Origin: an uncultured Bacteroidia bacterium
GTDB lineage: Bacteria; Bacteroidota; Bacteroidia; Bacteroidales; UBA932
Assembly: GCA_902781705.1 (NCBI GenBank)
Contig: CACZKE010000011.1
Coordinates: 1 to 64,000, forward strand
Direction of reading: 5' to 3'
Length of the DNA stretch: 64,000 nt
Positions within the stretch are counted from its first letter, which is position 1. Every line of letters begins with the position of its first letter. A program made the translations under genes and the position numbers. Under the pieces are notes generated by a model. It was given only the letters and a program-made list of their open reading frames with translations. It was not told the DNA's origin and did not search any database. This document shows, one piece after another, positions 23,638 to 44,829 of the stretch.

Positions 23638-23792
23638 AGGCCTGCGGGGTGCCGCCCTGGAACTGCCTGATATTCAATTTATAACAATTAGCTTAACCGC
23701 AGGCCTGCCCAAAAAGCGACAGGCCTGCGGTTCTGCTTTTTATACACGTCTGACAGTCAGATGGTTCTGGTACCTTCTCCCGCAGGCCTCGC
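23638..23792. repeat. REP-like element copy A (four half-sites)
   Basis: The 155-bp element lies between the convergent serA and RAYT-like genes. Half-sites are AGGCCTGCGGGG (23638), AACCGCAGGCCT (23695-23706), AGGCCTGCGGTT (23721-23732) and CTCCCGCAGGCCTCGC (23777-23792). The two middle sites form a perfect 12-bp hairpin with a 14-nt loop, and the outer two are complementary to each other. Spacing (57, 26 and 56 bp between starts) matches copies B and C, while the spacer sequences do not. The central hairpin followed by CTGCTTTTTAT could also end serA transcription. Confidence 0.85.
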
Positions 23793-23815
23793 TGTATGCT
23801 CATCAGAGGCGATGG

Positions 23816-24703
23816 TCAAAGTACGGACTCCAGCACTTCCGGATCGATGCCCAGCAACCGGGAAATCTGTTTTTTAGGGGCACTGAAACGGAATGCCAAT
23901 GTCCGGGCCATGCGCAGAAGGTCCTTCCGTCCCAGTTGATGCGGAGAGTCCACGTGCAGTTCATTCCGGCATACGGCAAGCACTTTCTCCTGCATTTCAC
24001 TATCCGTGAAAGCCAGTTGCTCTTCCATGCCATGTGATTGCGCTATGACGGATTCCAAGTCATATCTGCGCAGGCGGTCGAACATGGTCAGGCCGGATCC
24101 GACAATCTGTTCCACAGCCCGGTAATCCACGAAACATTTGTTGAGGATGCGCCCCTCCACGTGTTCCCAGTCCGCTGGAATCGTCGCGTGCGTGCCCAGC
24201 ATGTCCCTGGCTGCTTCCGGACCAAGAAAGCGGACGCCCTTCATGAAGGAAAGGTAGGGATTGAAATACACTTCGAACGGAGCCCATTCATACGAGAATG
24301 GGCTGTCGATCCGCGCCTTGTATGCATTGCGGAGCAGGTATGCCACTTCGTTCAGAAGCATCTGGGAGTCCTTGACATGCTGGACATCCGCTCCGTCGGC
24401 TTTGAGAACACCTCGGATGCCATATCGGCTTTTCAACATCATGGCAAGCCGGTGCAACACCCAGTTGAAATATGCGAGACAATCTTCGTAGCGGCCTTTT
24501 ACCAACAGATGCAAATGGTTGTCCATCAGCGTATAGCAAAGGATCCGAACCCGGAATTTCAACGTGCCGATGGCCAGTGTGTTTACTCCATAGATAAAGT
24601 CTTCCGGTAAACGGAAGATCCGGGTCCGGAGTTGATGTTCCGTGGTAAACATGAAAACGGAATCTTTTCCGGGACAAGGATCTTTGAATTGTTTGATGTT
24701 CAT
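23816..24703 (-). CDS. RAYT-like HUH (Y1) transposase protein
   Basis: The protein is 295 aa. The HUH nuclease core of the IS200-like Y1 superfamily is visible: CYTLMDNHLHLLVKG carries His63 and His65, and the helix NEVAYLLRNAYKARI (about 119-132) holds Tyr122, the best candidate nucleophile by analogy with the YIxxNP motif of REP-associated tyrosine transposases. The C-terminal ~90 residues end in a helix-turn-helix-like segment (PKKQISRLLGIDPEVLESV). It is a single copy with no IS200-type ends, but elements A and B lie 23 and 24 bp from the gene's two ends. That arrangement is typical of REP/RAYT loci, so it more likely acts on palindromes elsewhere than being a self-mobile IS. Nuclease activity is inferred. 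Confidence 0.75.
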   Translation of the reverse strand: MNIKQFKDPCPGKDSVFMFTTEHQLRTRIFRLPEDFIYGVNTLAIGTLKFRVRILCYTLMDNHLHLLVKGRYEDCLAYFNWVLHRLAMMLKSRYGIRGVLKADGADVQHVKDSQMLLNEVAYLLRNAYKARIDSPFSYEWAPFEVYFNPYLSFMKGVRFLGPEAARDMLGTHATIPADWEHVEGRILNKCFVDYRAVEQIVGSGLTMFDRLRRYDLESVIAQSHGMEEQLAFTDSEMQEKVLAVCRNELHVDSPHQLGRKDLLRMARTLAFRFSAPKKQISRLLGIDPEVLESVL

Positions 24704-24727
24704 GTCCTTTCGTGACTTGTTCCGAAG

Positions 24728-24882
24728 AGGCCTGCGGCAATCTCTTTTGGAAATGCCTGGCTACAAGGGATTTGCAAAACCGCTAACCGCAGGTGCCCTG
24801 TTTTTTTGAGAGGCTTGCGGGAGGAAACTGTATAGGTAATTGACATTTAAGATGTTACAAACGATTCTCCCGCAGGCCTCGC
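24728..24882. repeat. REP-like element copy B
   Basis: This 155-bp copy starts 24 bp upstream of the RAYT-like start codon. Half-sites are AGGCCTGCGG (24728), AACCGCAGG (24785), AGGCTTGCGGG (24811) and CTCCCGCAGGCCTCGC (24867-24882). Spacing is identical to copy A (57/26/56). The middle hairpin is degenerate and carries a T7 run in its loop. The element ends 9 bp before the stop of the SANT-like gene. Confidence 0.8.
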
Positions 24883-24891
24883 AAAACGGAC

Positions 24892-25323
24892 TCAAGAGGA
24901 CAAGCCGTTGTCCGGATCTTCGCGCTCCGGAGCGGCGGACTCTTCGCCCGAAGCCGTTCCGGGCTCCAGCCCTGCGCGGAGGAGGACGAGGCGCGTGACG
25001 ATTGCGCGCTCGGAGCGGCCGAACAGTTCGGCCATCTCGGCGAAGGTGGCGCCGGCGCGGTACATGGAGAGGAGCGTCTCCTCGTCCTGCTCCGTCCAGG
25101 GACGGGCGGACGGTTTGGAAACATACAGGCCCAGGGCCTGCAACTTCATCCGGACGGCGTTCGGGGAACGGCCCAGTTGTGTGGCCATTTCGCTGCGCGG
25201 AAGGTTGTCCGCCGCCATCTGCCGGAGCTCGGCCACTTCGTCAGGGGACCAGGGTTCATTGAAGCGGCCGTATCGCTGCTTCATCTGCCCGTACTGTTCG
25301 GGCGTAAGGAAAAAAGTTCTCAT
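24892..25323 (-). CDS. Small protein with two SANT/Myb-like helix-turn-helix units
   Basis: The product is 143 aa from the ATG at 25323; the open frame extends upstream, but only antisense to the DUF1015 gene. Two similar ~40-residue units are visible: PWSPDEVAELRQMAADNLPRSEMATQLGRS...AVRMKLQALGL and PWTEQDEETLLSMYRAGATFAEMAELFGRSERAIVTRLVLLRAGL. Both have the W-x(n)-L...A..LGRS..AV/I..RL pattern of SANT/Myb or GcrA-like DNA-binding domains, which suggests a small DNA-binding protein. The C-terminal 25 residues are acidic and probably disordered. It lies next to the RAYT-like gene and element B and is the second gene separating serA from DUF1015. Confidence 0.7.
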   Translation of the reverse strand: MRTFFLTPEQYGQMKQRYGRFNEPWSPDEVAELRQMAADNLPRSEMATQLGRSPNAVRMKLQALGLYVSKPSARPWTEQDEETLLSMYRAGATFAEMAELFGRSERAIVTRLVLLRAGLEPGTASGEESAAPEREDPDNGLSS

Positions 25324-25481
25324 ACTCGACACTATTTTTGACACCTGCAAGTTACGGAGGGCTATCCGTCTAAGCAAAAGCGGGTACGGATAAAGTCCGG
25401 AATCAGCCTCCCAGCGGGCCAGAGGGCTGACCGAACCCCGGAATTTTACGGTCAGAATCTGAAAAATCCCGGAAAAATGGC

Positions 25482-25489
25482 TATCTTTG
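25482..25489 (+). promoter_or_regulatory. -7 box for the DUF1015 gene
   Basis: TATCTTTG, a perfect match to TAnnTTTG, lies 29 bp upstream of the ATG at 25519. The gene therefore has its own promoter, although it belongs to the serC-serA group. Confidence 0.6.
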
Positions 25490-25518
25490 GGAACGATTAA
25501 CCACATAACTGAACCCTC

Positions 25519-26781
25519 ATGGTACGAGTAAAACCCTTTGCGGCCATCCGTCCGCCGAAAAACCTGGTCACCGAAGTGGCCGCCCCGCCGTATGACGTCC
25601 TGAATTCCGAAGAGGCCCTCGCCATGGCCGGCGAGAAGTCCCTCCTGCATATCACCAAGCCCGAGATCGACTTCGCCCCCATCGCCGGCGAGCACGAGCA
25701 GCGCACCTATGACAAGGCCGTGGAGAACTTCAAGGCCTGGCGCGAAAAGGGCTGGCTGGTCCAGGACCCGAAGCCCATGTACTACGTCTATGCGCAGACC
25801 ATGGGCAAGCGCACCCAGTACGGCATCGTCCTCTGTGCCCATACCGACGACTACGCCGAGGGCATCATCAAGAAGCACGAACTCACCCGCAAGGACAAGG
25901 AGGACGACCGCATGATCCATGTCCGCATCCAGAACGCGAACATCGAGCCCGTCTTCTTCGCCTTCAAGGACAATGCGGAACTCGCCGGAATCGTCGCGAA
26001 AGCGGCCGCCGGCAAGCCCGAATACAAGTTCACCGACGAGAACAAGTTCGTCCACACCTTCTGGGTGATCGACGATGACGCCACCATCGCCCGCATCACG
26101 GAACTCTTCACCACCCAGGTCGATGCCTTCTACGTCGCCGACGGCCACCATCGCACTGCCGCGGCCGCCCGCGTGGGCGCCGAGAAGCGGGCCCAGAACC
26201 CGAACCACACCGGCAACGAGGAGTACAACTACTTCATGGCCGTGTGCTTCCCGGAGAGCGAACTCGCCATCATCGACTACAACCGCGTCGTGAAGGACCT
26301 GAACGGATACACCCCGGAAGACTTCCTGAAGGCCCTGGAAGAGGATTTCGAGGTGAACGTCGCCACGAAGCCCCGCTGCGGCCGCCCGGCGAAACCCTTC
26401 GCCCCGACCGCCCTCCACAACTTCTCCATGTACCTTGGCGACAAGTGGTACAGCCTCACCGCCAAGCCCGGCCGCTATGACGACAACGATCCGATCGGCG
26501 TCCTGGACGTGACCATCCTGTCCAACCTCGTTCTGGACAAACTGCTGGGAATCAAGGATCTGCGGACCGACAAGCGCATCGACTTCGTGGGCGGTATCCG
26601 CGGCCTCGGCGAGCTCGCCCGCCGCGTGGATTCCGGCGAGATGAAGGTCGCCTTCGCCCTATATCCCGTGTCCATGCAGCAGCTCATCAATATCGCCGAC
26701 ACGGGCAACATCATGCCCCCGAAGACCACCTGGTTCGAGCCCAAACTCCGCAGCGGCCTGGCGATCCACGAGTTGGTTTAG
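25519..26781 (+). CDS. DUF1015-family protein with an ADGHHR motif
   Basis: The protein is 420 aa, the usual length for DUF1015 (PF06245). The family start RVKPFAAIRPPKNLVTEVAAPPYDVL is intact, and VADGHHRTAAAAR in the middle resembles the DGHHR motif of ParB/Srx-fold enzymes such as the ADP-dependent serine kinase SerK. No reaction is established for this family that I know of. Constant linkage to serC and serA in Bacteroidetes points to serine or phosphoserine metabolism; that and the ParB link are inference. Confidence 0.88.
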   Translation: MVRVKPFAAIRPPKNLVTEVAAPPYDVLNSEEALAMAGEKSLLHITKPEIDFAPIAGEHEQRTYDKAVENFKAWREKGWLVQDPKPMYYVYAQTMGKRTQYGIVLCAHTDDYAEGIIKKHELTRKDKEDDRMIHVRIQNANIEPVFFAFKDNAELAGIVAKAAAGKPEYKFTDENKFVHTFWVIDDDATIARITELFTTQVDAFYVADGHHRTAAAARVGAEKRAQNPNHTGNEEYNYFMAVCFPESELAIIDYNRVVKDLNGYTPEDFLKALEEDFEVNVATKPRCGRPAKPFAPTALHNFSMYLGDKWYSLTAKPGRYDDNDPIGVLDVTILSNLVLDKLLGIKDLRTDKRIDFVGGIRGLGELARRVDSGEMKVAFALYPVSMQQLINIADTGNIMPPKTTWFEPKLRSGLAIHELV

Positions 26782-26816
26782 TTGTCCGGGTGCCATCCCG
26801 CATCGCTTCCTTCGGG

Positions 26817-26973
26817 CGGCCTGCGGGAAGTGCTCTTGTAACAAACAAGAAATCAATCATATAGAAAATTGCAGACCGCAGGCCTACCGGAAATACTGGA
26901 GGCCTGCGGTTGCTCTTTTCGTATTGCGTTGAATATCGGGTAATTACGGGGAAGTCTCCCGCAACCCCCTCGC
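26817..26973. repeat. REP-like element copy C
   Basis: This copy lies between the convergent DUF1015 and recQ genes. Half-sites are GGCCTGCGGG (26818), ACCGCAGGCCT (26875-26885), AGGCCTGCGGT (26900-26910) and a degenerate CTCCCGCA...CCTCGC (26956-26973). The spacing again is 57, 26 and 56 bp when aligned to copies A and B. The central 11-bp hairpin followed by TGCTCTTTTCG may act as a bidirectional terminator. Confidence 0.8.
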
Positions 26974-26984
26974 AACCGACAGGA

Positions 26985-29180
26985 TTAATTCGCCACCTCG
27001 CAGAGGAACTTGATGCGCACGAGGCGGATTTCCAGGTCCTCGTAGTCGTCGCGGAGGGCGGCGAGGGCGTCCTGGAGAGAGTCGGAGGCGGCTTCCTCCT
27101 TGAACCAGTCGTAGATTTCGTCCACGACGTCTTCGTCCAGTTTTTCCCGGATGTAATAGTCGATGTCCAGCCGGGTGCCGGTGGAAACGATGGCCTCGAT
27201 CTCCGTCAGGAGGTCGTCCATGTCCAGCCCCTTCGCAGCGGCGATGTCCTCGAGGGCCATCTTGCGGTCGATGCTCTGGATGATATACACCTTGTTCCCG
27301 GAACGGGAGGCCACGGATTTCACCACGAAGTCGTCCGGGCGGAGGATATCGTTCTCCTCCACATAGCGGGCGATCAGCTCCAGGAACGGCTTTCCGTATT
27401 TGCGGGCCTTTCCTTCGCCCACGCCCTGGCAGCCGCGGAGTTCCTCGAAGGTGAGCGGATACAGGATGGACATGTCCTCCAGGGACGGGTCCGTGAAGAT
27501 GATCCAGGGCTGGAGGCCGCGGCGTCGGGCTTCGTCCTTGCGCAGGTCCTTGAGCATGGACAGGAGCGTCTGGTCACCGCCTCCGCCACCCCGCACGGCG
27601 GCCGGGTCGTCATCCTCGTCATCTCCCTCGCCGGTGAAGGTGCGGTCCTCCACCAGCATCAGTTCGTGCGGATGCAGGAAGAACTCCAGGCCCTCGTCCG
27701 TGGCGCGGATGAGTCCGTAGTTGTCGATGTCCTTGTCCAGGAAATGCAGGATGAGCCCCTGGTGGATGACGGCGGACCAGAAGCGGACGTCGTGGTCCTT
27801 CCCGGCGCCGAAGAATTCCAGCCGGTCGTGGTGGTAGGACTTGATGAGCGCGTTCGGCACCCCCGCAAGGATGCTGGCGAGGTGCTCGAGCTTGAAGTGT
27901 TCCCGGAGCGTGTCGATGAGTTCGATCGCGAGGCACATTTCCTCCTGGCCGTTGAACCGGGCCTTGGGATGGAGGCAGTTGTCGCAACTGCCGCAGTTGT
28001 CCTGCGGGTAGTCTTCGCCGAAGTAATTGAGCAGCAGTTTCCTGCGGCACTGGCTGGATTCCGCGTAGGCGACCGTCTCCCCGAGAAGCTGCTTGCCGAT
28101 CTCCTGTTCGGAGACGGGCTTCCCCTGCATGAACTTCTCCAGTTTCTGGATGTCCTTGTAACTGTAATAGGTGATGCACTGGCCTTCCTGCCCGTCGCGG
28201 CCCGCCCGGCCGGTTTCCTGGTAGTAGCCCTCGATGCTCTTGGGAATGTCGTAGTGGATGACGAACCGCACGTCCGGCTTGTCGATGCCCATGCCGAAGG
28301 CGATCGTGGCCACGATCACCCGCACGTCCTCCATCAGGAAGCGGTCCTGGTTCTCCGCCCGCGTCTTCGCGTCCAGGCCGGCGTGGTAGGGGAGCGCCTC
28401 GATGCCGTTGATGGTCAGAAGTTGAGCCAGTTCCTCCACTTTCTTCCGGCTCAGGCAGTAGATGATGCCCGACTTCCCGGGGTTCTGGCGGATGAAACGG
28501 ATGATGTCCTTCTCCGGCTCCACCTTGTCCCGGATCTCGTAATACAGGTTCGGGCGGTTGAAAGAGGACTTGAACACCGTGGCGTCCGTGATGCGGAGGT
28601 TCTTGAGGATGTCGCTCTGGACCTTGGGCGTCGCCGTGGCGGTGAGGGCGATGACCGGGGCCGGCTGGATCTCCTCGATGATGGAACGGATCTTCCGGTA
28701 TTCCGGCCGGAAGTCATGGCCCCATTCGGAGATGCAGTGCGCCTCGTCCACGGCGTAGAAGGAGATGTGGATCTTCTTCAGCAGGTCGATGTTCTCCTCC
28801 TTCGTCAGGGACTCCGGTGCGACGTACAGGAGTTTCGTGACTCCGCTCAGCAGGTCCTCCTGCACCTCGGCGAGTTGGGTGCGGCTCAGGGAGGAATTGA
28901 GGAAATGGGCGATCCCGTCGTCCTTTTCCACGAAGCCCCGGATGGCGTCCACCTGGTTCTTCATCAGGGCGATGAGCGGGGAGATGACGATGGCCGTTCC
29001 TTCCATCACGAGGGCGGGAAGTTGGTAGCACAGGGATTTGCCGCCGCCCGTGGGCATCAGGACAAACGCATTCCCTCCCTCGACAAGGTGACGGATGATC
29101 CGTTCCTGGTCGCCCTTGAAGGAGTCGAAGCCGAAAAACTGTTTCAACTTGGACTGGAGGATGGAGGGATCGAAGGACAT
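26985..29180 (-). CDS. recQ: ATP-dependent DNA helicase RecQ
   Basis: The product is about 731 aa from the ATG at 29180 (MSFDPSILQSKLKQFFGF). It unwinds DNA 3'-5' in recombination and replication-fork repair. Walker A is MPTGGGKSLCYQ and Walker B DEAHCISEWGHDFRPEY; other helicase motifs are ALTATAT, VIVATIAFGMGIDKPDVRFV and YYQETGRAGRDG. The RecQ zinc-binding region includes CGSCDNC, followed by the winged helix and one HRDC domain (about 550-630). Typical Bacteroidetes RecQ length. Confidence 0.96.
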   Translation of the reverse strand: MSFDPSILQSKLKQFFGFDSFKGDQERIIRHLVEGGNAFVLMPTGGGKSLCYQLPALVMEGTAIVISPLIALMKNQVDAIRGFVEKDDGIAHFLNSSLSRTQLAEVQEDLLSGVTKLLYVAPESLTKEENIDLLKKIHISFYAVDEAHCISEWGHDFRPEYRKIRSIIEEIQPAPVIALTATATPKVQSDILKNLRITDATVFKSSFNRPNLYYEIRDKVEPEKDIIRFIRQNPGKSGIIYCLSRKKVEELAQLLTINGIEALPYHAGLDAKTRAENQDRFLMEDVRVIVATIAFGMGIDKPDVRFVIHYDIPKSIEGYYQETGRAGRDGQEGQCITYYSYKDIQKLEKFMQGKPVSEQEIGKQLLGETVAYAESSQCRRKLLLNYFGEDYPQDNCGSCDNCLHPKARFNGQEEMCLAIELIDTLREHFKLEHLASILAGVPNALIKSYHHDRLEFFGAGKDHDVRFWSAVIHQGLILHFLDKDIDNYGLIRATDEGLEFFLHPHELMLVEDRTFTGEGDDEDDDPAAVRGGGGGDQTLLSMLKDLRKDEARRRGLQPWIIFTDPSLEDMSILYPLTFEELRGCQGVGEGKARKYGKPFLELIARYVEENDILRPDDFVVKSVASRSGNKVYIIQSIDRKMALEDIAAAKGLDMDDLLTEIEAIVSTGTRLDIDYYIREKLDEDVVDEIYDWFKEEAASDSLQDALAALRDDYEDLEIRLVRIKFLCEVAN

Positions 29181-32995: not shown

Positions 32996-35256
32996 CCCAC
33001 AAGAGAACCCTCGTGACCTGCGCGCTTCCGTACGCCAACGGTCCCGTCCATATCGGCCACCTGGCCGGTGCCTACATCCCCGGTGACATCTACGTCCGCT
33101 ACCTCCGGATGCGGGGCGAGGACGTCGTCTTCGTCTGCGGCTCCGACGAGCACGGCGTGCCCATCACCATCAAGGCCCGCGCCCAGGGCGTCACCCCGCA
33201 GGACATCGTGGACAAGTACCACAGCGTGATGAAGGACGCCTTCACGGGCCTCGGCATCAACTTTGACATCTACTCCCGGACGACGTCGAAGGTCCATGAC
33301 GAGAATGCGTCGGAGTTCTTCCGCAAACTCTACGACGACGACAAGTTCATCACCAAGGAGACCGAGCAGTATTACGACGAGGAGGCGAAGACCTTCCTCG
33401 CGGACCGTTACATCGTGGGCACCTGCCCCAAGTGCGGCAATCCCGGCGCCTACGGGGACCAGTGCGAGAAGTGCGGATCCACGCTGAGCCCGGAAGAGCT
33501 CATCGACCCCAAGTCCGCCCTGTCCGGCTCCACGCCCAAGAAGGTGAAGACCAAGCACTGGTACCTTCCGCTGGACCAGTACGAGCCCTGGCTCCGCGAC
33601 TGGATCCTGGAGCAGCACAAGGAGTGGAAGACCAACGTCTATGGCCAGTGCAAGAGCTGGCTGGACGGCGGCCTGCAGCCCCGCGCCGTCTCCCGCGACC
33701 TGGACTGGGGCGTCCCCGTCCCTGTCGACGGTGCCGAGGGCAAGGTCCTCTACGTCTGGTTCGACGCCCCCATCGGCTACATCTCCAACACCAAGGAACT
33801 CCTCCCTCAGAGTTGGGAGAAGTGGTGGAAGGACCCGGAAACCCGGCTGGTGCATTTCATCGGCAAGGACAACATCGTCTTCCACTGCATCGTGTTCCCG
33901 TCCATGCTCAAGGCCTACGGCGACTACATCCTCCCGGAGAACGTTCCGGCCAACGAGTTCCTGAACCTCGAGGGCGACAAGATCTCCACCTCCCGCAACT
34001 GGGCCGTCTGGGTCCACGAGTACGAGGAGCAGTTCCCGGGCCAGGAGGACGTCCTGCGCTACGTCCTGACGGCGAACGCCCCGGAGACCAAGGACAACGA
34101 CTTCACCTGGAAGGACTTCCAGCAGCGCAACAACTCCGAGCTCGTGGCCGTGTTCGGCAACTTCGTGAACCGCGCCGTCGTCCTCACGCACAAGTACTTC
34201 GGCGGTCTCGTCCCGGAGAACCGGAAACCCGAAGCCATTGACGCCGAGACCCTTGCCTCCATCGTCCCCTGCAAGGAGGCCCTGGAGAAATACGTGGAGA
34301 CCTTCCACTTCCGCGAGGCCCTGAAGGAGGCGATGAACATCGCCCGCATCGGCAACAAGTACATCTCCGACATGGAGCCCTGGAAGGTGGCGAAGACCGA
34401 CATGGACCGCACCGCCTCCATCCTCTACACCTGCCTCCAGATCTGCGCCGACCTCGCCATCGCCTTCGAGCCCTTCACCCCCTTCAGCGCCGAGAAACTC
34501 CGCACGATCCTCCGCGTGGGCCTCGACGCCGGCACCGACCACCGCGCCGGCGAAGGCACCCCGACGGAGAACTTCTACAAGCCGGGCGAGGGCAAGGCCC
34601 TGCATACGCGAGATTTCTCCGCGCGGCCTGACGGCCTTGGTCGAAATGACAATGGTCTTGTCATTTCGAGCGAAGCCTCCTCTGTCATTTCGAGCGGAGC
34701 CGAAGGCGGAGTCGAGAAATCTATCGTCCTCCGCTGGGACATGCTCGGCACCCCCGAACTCCTGCCCGCCGGGCACGCCCTGGGCGAGTCCGTCCTCCTG
34801 TTCCAGAAGATCGAGGACGCCGTCGTGGATGCCCAGATCGCCCGCCTCCAGGCCATCAAGGCCGAGCGCGAAGCCGCCGAGGCCGCCAAGGCCGCTGCGG
34901 AAGCCGCGAAGAAGGTAGAGCCGCAGAAGGAGGAAGTGTCCTTCGACGATTTCGGCCGCATGGACATCCGCACCGCCACCGTCCTGGAGGCCGAGCGCGT
35001 CCCCAAGACGGACAAACTCCTGAAACTCACCATCGACACGGGCATCGACACCCGGACCATCGTCTCCGGCATCGCGGAGTACTACAGCCCCGAGGACATG
35101 CTGGGCAAGCAGATCTGCATCCTGGCGAACCTCGCCCCGCGCAAGATCCGCGGCATCGAGTCCAAGGGCATGATCCTCATGGCCAAGCAGGGCGACGGCA
35201 AGATGCGCTTCATCACCCCGCAGGAAGCCGTCACCAACGGCGCCGTCATCGGCTGA
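32992..35256 (+). CDS. metG: Methionyl-tRNA synthetase carrying an in-frame repeat insertion
   Basis: The product is 754 aa from the ATG that overlaps the dnaG stop. The class I HIGH motif is [15 protein letters not shown], the zinc knuckles are [17 protein letters not shown], and [15 protein letters not shown] is the KMSKS-equivalent. An anticodon-binding helical domain and a C-terminal EMAP-II/Trbp111 tRNA-binding domain ([20 protein letters not shown]...) follow. Residues of about 540-577, at the end of the anticodon domain, are encoded by palindromic repeats at 34610-34722 and break the normal join before [16 protein letters not shown]. The insertion keeps the frame open, so the enzyme is probably functional. 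Confidence 0.96.
34610..34722. repeat. Coding palindromic repeat cluster inside metG
   Basis: A complete 39-bp unit starting GTCATTTCGAGCGGAG lies at 34684-34722 and is read as [14 protein letters not shown] partial direct copy lies at about 34669-34680 and a diverged inverted copy at 34610-34650 (AGATTTCTC...TCGAAATGACA). Together they form a large palindrome that is translated through. The 39-bp unit recurs in the same frame in dnaX (39677-39715) and lptB (41048-41086). Confidence 0.85.
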
Positions 35257-35297
35257 CCGTCCCGGCTAACTGCTTGATACATAGTGTGCTAATAACT

Positions 35298-35328
35298 ATT
35301 CCCTGGTGCAGATGTACCAGGGAATATT
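35298..35328. terminator. Bidirectional terminator between metG and the SPFH gene
   Basis: ATTCCCTGGT (35298-35307) pairs with ACCAGGGAAT (35316-35325) between the convergent metG and SPFH genes, followed by ATTGTTT. Confidence 0.7.
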
Positions 35329-35366
35329 GTTTAACCCGTTGGGATAGAAATACTTAGGCGAGACGC

Positions 35367-36239
35367 CTATTTGCTCAAGTTGATGAACGGAAGGGCGTTG
35401 GAGCCGTTGTAGGTCGGAAGTTCGCCGTTCCACTTCTCGATGGCGTACTGCTGGACGATGAGCCCGTTCAGGGAGGCCGCGACCACGCGGTTGTAGTAGG
35501 CCTCGCCGTCACCCTGGATCTTCAGGGCTTCGGCCTCACCCTGGGCCTTGGCGATGGCGATCTTCGCCTCGGCCTCGGCTTCCTTCACCTTGTTTTCCGC
35601 CTTGAGGGCGTTCTGGACCGCTTCGTTCTTCGCATTGATGGCCTCGGTCAGGGAAGCCGGCGGATCGATCTTCGTCGTGAACTCGCGGACGATGAACCCT
35701 TCGCGGTTCATGGATTCGTCCAGACGGGCGCGGACCTCGGTCTCGAACTTGGCGCGGTTGGCCATGAGTTCGTCGGACGTGTAGTTGTTCGCGCAGGTAC
35801 GGTAGGCCTCGAAGATGCAGGTGTTGATATAGCCCATTTCCAGTTCCCGGACCGGTTTGCGGTATTTCACGAAGATGTCGACGGCCTTGTTCTCGTCGAT
35901 CTGGTAGGCCAGGGTCGGGGTCATGGAGAAGATGGCCGCATCCTTCGGGTTCACCGTGAACGGATCATAGGTGACTCGCTGGATATAAGTAGGATACTCG
36001 AAGATACTTTCCGTGATGGGGTTGTACCACACCCAGCCGCGGCAGGTGCCTTCCACGCCGCCCTTGAGTTCGGAGTTGGACGACCATTTCTTGAAACGGA
36101 TACCCACCGACGCGGAGTCGATGGTCGTGCAGCAGGATGCCATCAGGATGATGGCGAGGACAGTGACGCCCAGGGAAATCCAGGTGGCCTTCCCCAGTTT
36201 GCTTCCCCTGCGGGGATTGACGGTTTTGGTGGCTTGCAT
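35367..36239 (-). CDS. SPFH/prohibitin-family membrane protein
   Basis: The product is 290 aa from the ATG at 36239; the frame stays open further upstream, antisense to the M16 gene. One N-terminal transmembrane segment (WISLGVTVLAIILMASCC) is followed by the SPFH/Band 7 domain (TIDSASVGIRFKKW..., FVKYRKPVRELEMGYINT) and a long Ala/Glu/Lys coiled coil (NALKAENKVKEAEAEAKIAIAKAQGEAEALKIQGDGEAYY). Such proteins form large ring assemblies in the membrane and are linked to protein quality control. It is 11 bp downstream of the M16 peptidase gene, probably in the same operon. Confidence 0.9.
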   Translation of the reverse strand: MQATKTVNPRRGSKLGKATWISLGVTVLAIILMASCCTTIDSASVGIRFKKWSSNSELKGGVEGTCRGWVWYNPITESIFEYPTYIQRVTYDPFTVNPKDAAIFSMTPTLAYQIDENKAVDIFVKYRKPVRELEMGYINTCIFEAYRTCANNYTSDELMANRAKFETEVRARLDESMNREGFIVREFTTKIDPPASLTEAINAKNEAVQNALKAENKVKEAEAEAKIAIAKAQGEAEALKIQGDGEAYYNRVVAASLNGLIVQQYAIEKWNGELPTYNGSNALPFINLSK

Positions 36240-44085: not shown

Positions 44086-44186
44086 TCCCGGCCCTGTTTA
44101 ATCCTGGATCAACGGCAGCAGAAAGCCGCGGCGGTCAGGATGATATAGGCGTCTTTCTTAACCGGTTGAATATCAGCACAATAACG

Positions 44187-44220
44187 AAAACTCCCTGGTA
44201 CATTTGTACCAGGGAGTTTT
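44187..44220. terminator. Perfect 15-bp bidirectional terminator
   Basis: AAAACTCCCTGGTAC (44187-44201) pairs perfectly with 44206-44220 around an ATTT loop, with A/T tracts on both sides. It lies between the convergent response-regulator and efp genes. Confidence 0.85.
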
Positions 44221-44259
44221 GCGTAACTATTTGAGCGTAAGTCTATTGACTGCGACGCT

Positions 44260-44829
44260 TTATTTCACGCGCTGGCCGTAGGAACGGTCGGTGGTGTTCA
44301 CGGTGATGATTTCGCCGGTCTCGATGAAGAGCGGAACCATGATCTTGGCGCCGGTCTCGAGGGTGACCTCCTTGAGGGCGGAGGTGGAGGCGGTGTTGCC
44401 CTTCACGGCAGGCTCGCTGTAGGTGACCTCGAGGGTGACGTAGGTCGGGAGTTCGCAGGTGAGGCAGCGCTCTTCGGGCTCGGTGAGGAACATCATCTCC
44501 ACGCGCTGGCCTTCTTTCATGAGGTCGGCGTTCTCCACGACGTCGTGGGGAAGGGTGATCTGCTCGTAGGTCTCCTCGTGCATGAAGTTGAAGGCCTCGC
44601 CGTCATCATAGAGATACTGGTAGGGGCGGCGTTCCACGGTGATGGTGTCGAGCTTGACACCGGCGGTGAAGGTGTTCTCGAGGATACGGCCGTTTTCGAG
44701 GTTGCGGAGTTTCGTCTTGACAAAGGCGGGACCCTTGCCGGGTTTCACGTGCTGGAAATACACCACGACGCAAGGTTTGCCGTTGTACATGATGTACATT
44801 CCGTTCTTGAGATCAGCTGTTGTTGCCAT
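44260..44829 (-). CDS. efp: Elongation factor P
   Basis: The protein is 189 aa with three beta-barrel domains. EF-P relieves ribosome stalling at proline stretches. HVKPGKGPAFVKTKLRNL carries the tip loop with the Lys that is the usual modification site; VERRPYQYLYDDGEAFNFMHEETYEQI is the second barrel, and the ending VPLFIETGEIITVNTTDRSYGQRV is typical. A strong promoter lies upstream (44872-44902). Confidence 0.97.
   Translation of the reverse strand: MATTADLKNGMYIMYNGKPCVVVYFQHVKPGKGPAFVKTKLRNLENGRILENTFTAGVKLDTITVERRPYQYLYDDGEAFNFMHEETYEQITLPHDVVENADLMKEGQRVEMMFLTEPEERCLTCELPTYVTLEVTYSEPAVKGNTASTSALKEVTLETGAKIMVPLFIETGEIITVNTTDRSYGQRVK

Follow-up and report, generated by a model that had tools for sequence, protein, structure and literature searches.

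The BIME-1/RIB elements of Escherichia coli were reportedly described by Boccard and Prentki in 1993. They consist of two inverted repetitive extragenic palindromes (REPs) that enclose an IHF site, according to the relevant part of PMC2817692. In the RAYT-REP systems, or REPtrons, as portrayed in sections of Nunvar 2010 and Quentin 2018, an HUH-Y1 gene (the REP-associated tyrosine transposase, RAYT) has its own repeat on either side, further copies lie elsewhere, and the repeat sequence tracks the RAYT. Here, we describe three palindromic elements, A, B, and C, that accompany a RAYT-like gene in a 64,000-nucleotide stretch of DNA from an uncultured Bacteroidales bacterium (GenBank assembly GCA_902781705.1, contig CACZKE010000011.1, positions 1 to 64,000; the window). 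The elements resemble the E. coli repeat type but are differently built. We regard it as an evenly balanced proposition, judged from sequence, that they would combine addresses specific to the RAYT with an unvarying scaffold of HU/IHF-type bends and work like BIME-1/RIB.

The likeness to BIME-1/RIB lies in the inverted palindromic half-sites around an IHF-type site (recognized here by sequence only), in the intergenic position, and in the linkage to a RAYT of the same protein family. The initial annotation had not recognized this architecture; given the IHF site between inverted REPs in E. coli, it is not wholly unknown. Unlike BIME-1/RIB, our elements each have two cores, which are symmetric and keep a fixed 83-bp pitch. 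Furthermore, the family occupies 16 places (counted with ≤3 mismatches and exact spacing), compared with hundreds for BIME-1/RIB and usually >100 for REPs. Unlike the REPtrons of the above accounts, our elements have neither a REP foot nor a small-loop hairpin unit, and a constant inner core is shared across families with unrelated outer sequences. Searches of a limited collection of papers found no account of such elements in Bacteroidales.

Each element is 150 bp long and comprises two 67-bp dyads, GGCCTGCGG-N49-CCGCAGGCC, with a 16-bp gap between them:

23639 to 23788, no strand assigned: element A, dyads 23639 to 23705 and 23722 to 23788, 16-bp spacer 23706 to 23721
24729 to 24878, no strand assigned: element B, dyads 24729 to 24795 (2 mismatches) and 24812 to 24878 (1 mismatch)
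26818 to 26967, no strand assigned: element C, dyads 26818 to 26884 and 26901 to 26967 (2 mismatches), between DUF1015-like and recQ-like genes

Three elements with four half-sites each, alternating in orientation under one geometry, had been annotated initially, and all were confirmed at these coordinates. The half-site spacing of 57, 26, and 56 bp needed correction: counted on the 9-mers, the steps from one start to the next are 58, 25, and 58 bp. Elements A and B do lie close beside the ends of the HUH gene, although at 27 bp (from the end of A to the 3' end of the gene) and 25 bp (from its 5' end to the start of B) instead of 23 and 24 bp. Element C sits between convergent genes, as stated, with a DUF1015-like open reading frame (ORF) ending at 26781 (+) and a recQ-like ORF ending at 26985 (−).

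The genome to which the window belongs (3.07 Mb in 43 contigs, the window being contig C11) holds 15 doublets plus one element that is split between contigs C28 and C26, so that the search for further copies succeeded. This count relied on a fixed-spacing pattern, by which decayed or length-changed copies would be missed. With ≤2 mismatches, the dyad pattern gave 26 forward matches versus 0 for the reversed pattern, and with ≤3 mismatches, 37 versus 9. When loops of 35 to 64 were permitted, an unbiased check of spacing in this genome, N was 49 in 7/7 matches with exact arms. The fixed geometry thus stands above chance, but with exceptions: one doublet (C3:104033/104115) has a pitch of 82 instead of 83 bp, with a 15-bp spacer, and the second unit is decayed in 2/15 doublets.

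The spacers had been described as free of common sequence, which was taken to imply that only helical phase or single-strand geometry mattered. The first idea is rejected by the sequence logo, which shows conserved blocks inside N49, and the second is not supported. Among 32 units of this genome, with both strands pooled, there is information in columns 1 to 9 (GGCCTGCGG), weakly in columns 17 to 22, and strongly at A23 and A24 and in the center (Y29 T30 G31 A32 T33 W34), which places a conserved dyad inside each N49. The nearly free columns are 11 to 16, 25 to 28, and their mirror images (≤0.14 bit each), and 20 of the 67 columns drift; between-copy identity for 30 units is 0.27 in near-free columns versus 0.65 in the remaining ones. 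An IHF-type site occupies the spacer in a constant register, so that most of the fixed length is explained by blocks of sequence set at constant distances.

The dyad center reads TTTTGTAA-N4-YTGATWATCAR-N4-TTACAAAA, a symmetrized IHF consensus in which WATCAR-N4-TTA runs outward from the center on both strands. The six cores of elements A, B, and C are as follows:

23660 to 23684 (center 23672), no strand assigned: IHF-type core of dyad A1, score 18.0
23743 to 23767 (center 23755), no strand assigned: IHF-type core of dyad A2, score 11.1
24750 to 24774 (center 24762), no strand assigned: IHF-type core of dyad B1, score 9.7
24833 to 24857 (center 24845), no strand assigned: IHF-type core of dyad B2, score 16.6
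26839 to 26863 (center 26851), no strand assigned: IHF-type core of dyad C1, score 10.8
26922 to 26946 (center 26934), no strand assigned: IHF-type core of dyad C2, score 14.3

The IHF consensus is WATCAANNNNTTR, also given as TAAnnnnTTGATW, in the part of PMC10380432 that treats it; Table 2 of PMC6907758, the portion relevant here, has WATCAANNNNTTR in its H-NS row and a different motif in its IHF row, while PMC10380432 assigns WATCAANNNNTTR to IHF. The cores match this consensus at a mean of 6.87/9 positions in register, compared with 2.13 to 3.80 at 12 other registers. Both core halves are conserved, with T30 and A38 in 28/30 units, and exact WATCAANNNNTTR occurs 3 times in the 32 units versus 0.12 in shuffles (maximum 2 in 500 shuffles). 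These features suggest a symmetric site that an HU/IHF-family protein of Bacteroidales would recognize by sequence. One HU/IHF gene (C1:151850-152116) was detected in this genome, the same by PF00216 and PF18291, which fits the homodimer that a symmetric site would suggest.

A second type of element also carries the core. At 690 to 812, 35252 to 35372, and 44144 to 44262 of the window, two IHF-type cores 65 bp apart frame a perfect or near-perfect terminator-like hairpin and have short outer arms, for example CCGTC/GACGC or GTCGAATG/CATTCGAC. The same type is found in two further stretches (L049 and L058) and in 9/35 small stretches examined.

Two adjoining genes accompany elements A and B:

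23816 to 24703, minus strand: RAYT-like HUH/Y1 gene, 295 amino acids (aa), with a C-terminal helical extension
24892 to 25323, minus strand: gene for a small helix-turn-helix (HTH) protein, 143 aa as read, adjoining the RAYT gene

By fold, the first of these is a RAYT. The top Foldseek match was 4er8 (E 1.0e-4), the E. coli RAYT on a REP hairpin, followed by IS200/IS608. In an alignment of 28 sequences, the HUH and single-tyrosine core is present (H63 in 27, with one gap; H65 in 27, with one Y; Y122 and N126 in 28), and position 127 of the class 2 Y---NP motif is occupied by P, A, S, and G in 16, 7, 3, and 2 sequences, respectively, the window protein having A. With its catalytic residues kept and a fold like that of the E. 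coli RAYT, the protein could still cleave single-stranded DNA (ssDNA). In sequence searches with the window protein, the curated family model NCBIfam NF047646 scored 21.7 bits, below its cutoff of 80; Pfam gave no match (Y1_Tnp was matched in 6/28 relatives), and neither did solved structures. The gene is not multicopy, as an IS200/IS605 element would be: none of its 10 matches in the same genome is near identical, identities being only 24 to 34%. Like the HUH-Y1 gene of a REPtron, it lies between two copies of its repeat (A and B), with further copies elsewhere. The Foldseek match and the 16 places support the initial annotation, which paired a RAYT-like gene with a dispersed family of palindromes cognate to it.

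Among TnpAY1 subclasses, the motif, length, and HuH-to-Tyr distance of this protein point different ways. Subclass 2.6, in the portion of PMC6006769 that covers it, shares the phylum (Bacteroidetes), the NH[LIV]H motif (NHLH here), and atypical flanking structures ("atypical secondary structures") with copies in the genome; these were compared by description only and may be the same structures as ours. Its median HuH-to-Tyr distance of 82 residues and median length of 179 aa differ from the 59 residues (H63 to Y122) and 295 aa found here. Subclass 2.1/TIRYT, in the corresponding parts of PMC6006769 and PMC3733652, shares the C-terminal extension and the common HuH-to-Tyr range of 58 to 67, but its motifs are NHVH or NH[YF]H; those parts report that no REP-like sequences were found and that its terminal inverted repeats carry GGGGWSAS.

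RAYT homologs were present in 33/37 genomes of the genus and in 0/24 others of the order. The 24 closest relatives (loci L085 to L108) are 37 to 95% identical and come from metagenome-assembled genomes of Bacteroidales or Bacteroidia, many from rumen or other ruminant gut. When a 25-bp core matrix trained on the units of the window genome was applied to the sequences beside 26 RAYT loci (these 24 plus L030 and L031), there were 78 matches versus 4.95 in shuffles. Among 39 core pairs lying 40 to 130 bp apart, 30 fell at 81 to 86 bp and 13 of those at exactly 83 bp, a clustering that emerged without the spacing being imposed; such a pair was found in 21/26 loci. Independently of the own-unit data, exact WATCAANNNNTTR occurred 18 times in the same flanks versus 0.93 in shuffles (maximum 5 in 200 shuffles). 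The outer half-sites vary widely among loci (e.g., GGTTTGGTAC, GGTTCGGAAC, GTCCATGG, ACCTTCCAT, and GGGTTAGCA), with an agreement of 7.14/9 within loci versus 5.41/9 between them, and their similarity follows RAYT identity modestly (Mantel r 0.25; 99/5,000 permutations).

Distant RAYT paralogs have other flanking palindromes that lack the core, and a search for doublets of any geometry at RAYT loci found palindromic doublets of other lengths beside them. At one locus (L023:750-3560), a 37%-identical RAYT lies within CRISPR-like tandem arrays on both sides of the gene, built of a 38-bp palindromic repeat and inter-repeats of ~36 bp, with a period of mostly 74 bp.

Recurrence of the core beside RAYTs of this branch would also be expected if it were read by the RAYT's C-terminal domain or by the linked HTH protein, and not by an HU/IHF protein. 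We find this quite improbable. In its favor, the C-terminal model's weak matches were mostly HTH domains (best E 0.56; none ≤0.001). Against it, the core stands at many places in other surroundings and shares the register of the IHF consensus, and the HTH gene is found in 7/24 loci versus 23/24 for the core. Those 7 loci, in which the HTH gene lies 192 to 243 bp from the RAYT, are the ones with ≥60% RAYT identity.

A scan of 60 further genomes of the genus with the GGCCTGCGG pattern yielded 30 forward matches, spread over 18 genomes. Judged by the score of the core, 24 of these were not real (≤−4.9) and 6 were (14.0 to 19.7; five in genome G003 and one in G004). Genome G003, which has the closest RAYT among 36 genomes of the genus (73%), carries units, and so do G085 to G088, which were reached via loci with 63 to 95% RAYT identity. 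When 28 units were paired with those of the window genome by flanking synteny, identity was 426/504 in half-sites, 227/308 in the center, and 315/448 in TTTTGTAA, compared with 163/336 and 125/224 in free columns. This pattern is compatible with selection acting on the blocks and their spacing, or with units having been replaced by other copies. Relative to G003, free columns 11 to 16 are at chance (25/96), while the genes beside element C are 88 to 92% identical; replacement by another copy, instead of drift in place, may account for this.

Gene order has also changed around the elements. In G087, serA-DUF1015-recQ lacks the cassette and the elements, and the RAYT, element, and HTH gene are together elsewhere. 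The RAYT-HTH-DUF1015 segment is inverted in G085, G088, G089, and G090 relative to the window genome, G003, and G086, and the ends of the inversion fall in gaps where elements sit. We considered clean transposition of the element alone and rejected it: copies that are nearly identical in G003, G085, and G086 have sequence in common past the element ends, which leaves element-only movement unsupported.

Under the address-and-scaffold interpretation, a homodimeric HU/IHF-family protein would bind the symmetric core of each 67-bp dyad and bend the DNA, bringing together two 9-bp inverted half-sites that lie ~29 bp on either side of the core. The neighboring RAYT, as a dimer or with the linked HTH protein, may read the half-sites as an address. 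Two bends 83 bp apart, or ~8 turns at a helical repeat of 10.5 bp per turn, would combine into a single 150-bp element that offers four addresses. Selection acting on the half-sites, the cores, and the distances would hold the elements in position, and the RAYT might also use them now and then to spread or to cause rearrangements. More tentatively, and with our doubts outweighing our confidence, the system could be a modular form of genome marking, in which the 9-bp address carried by two phased HU/IHF-type bends varies and a domesticated RAYT, joined by an HTH partner in one branch, reads a chromosomal set of ~16 sites. Addresses would shift with RAYT specificity while scaffold and pitch stay, and the elements would be functional sites kept in position and not selfish repeats. 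The elements bear on the function of RAYTs in their hosts and on the reasons for the maintenance of REPs. Address and scaffold can be separated by comparing families, and the meeting of one HU-type protein and one RAYT on a 67-bp site is a prediction that can be tested in vitro.

Several observations weigh against the address-and-scaffold interpretation. The core is not RAYT specific, since it occurs outside RAYT elements: the genome has 63 matches with ≤2 mismatches (versus 1 for the reversed pattern), and 6 of the 50 listed fall in elements of the A, B, and C type. According to part of PMC10380432, IHF is confined to a small number of phyla, proteobacteria among them, and HU is without sequence specificity; a sequence-specific HU in Bacteroidales is an assumption. 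The core doublet is missing at 5/26 RAYT loci (L099, L104, L107, L108, and L031), and L104 has no core match although its upstream flank was covered. Half-site similarity increases solely among pairs with >60% RAYT identity. Position 3 of the half-site is C in 46/62 in the window genome and T in 35/40 in G003, which counts in favor of the interpretation, but the G003 search pattern was biased toward T at that position. Genome G088 keeps GGYCTGCGG doublets, though its closest RAYT has GGTTTGGTAC half-sites. The expected co-occurrence of elements and RAYT, which G003 bears out, is weakened by G004, where a unit is present and no close RAYT was detected (best match 32%; completeness 72%). Finally, 11 elements taken as ssDNA fold better than shuffles (z −2.1 to −5.8).

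The last of these points speaks for ordinary REP/BIME logic, in which the half-sites are stems of single-stranded hairpins cut by the RAYT, as with E. coli TnpAREP and IS608, and the core is a passenger or helper. The conserved HUH and tyrosine residues and the best fold match, a RAYT bound to a REP hairpin, are likewise in its favor, but we consider it rather unlikely. Arms of the same unit pair at 7.80 of 9 positions versus 7.71 when re-dealt (340/2,000), a test with little variation and low power; central pairing is 7.54 versus 7.61 (13 doublets), and the outermost pairs are no better. The absence of half-site covariation in either arrangement weakens a pure hairpin reading. As a positive control, the elements with cores 65 bp apart gave 9.73 versus 6.06 of 11 (0/5,000; 15 elements), with the axis chosen for best pairing, which favors this result. 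The predicted folds themselves vary by element, some having an outer and a central stem, others two unit stems or just the central one, and a GT[AG]G foot was found in 0/62 flanks of 8 nucleotides. In both the missing foot and the lack of pairing covariation, the half-sites are unlike those of BIME-1/RIB.

A role of the elements at 3' ends, as bidirectional transcription terminators or mRNA-end structures, seems very unlikely to us. By a rough ORF caller, an ORF ends ≤30 bp to the left in 10/17 entries, and the element type with the same core at 65-bp spacing frames terminator-like hairpins. Yet terminator-like sites are not enriched between 23500 and 27100 (5 found versus 3.9 expected), an Rfam search gave no match, and element B lies between two same-strand genes. 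Nor is placement at convergent 3' ends a rule, as had been suggested: by the same caller, which failed on element C itself, the 17 entries comprised 3 convergent, 6 tandem, 2 divergent, and 6 unresolved.

Two observations concern individual copies. In G085, whose RAYT is 95% identical to that of the window, an element between DUF1015 and serA (L234:3705-3852) has GGTTTGGTACC half-sites like those that belong to the G088 RAYT and is a possible relic. The element split between contigs C28 and C26 (L048 end and L055 start) is interrupted within its 16-bp spacer by an insertion sequence, which we take to be ISL3-like; its inverted ends read GGTTCTTCGTCACTTT, and a duplication of 8 bp, GAACATTG, accompanies it.

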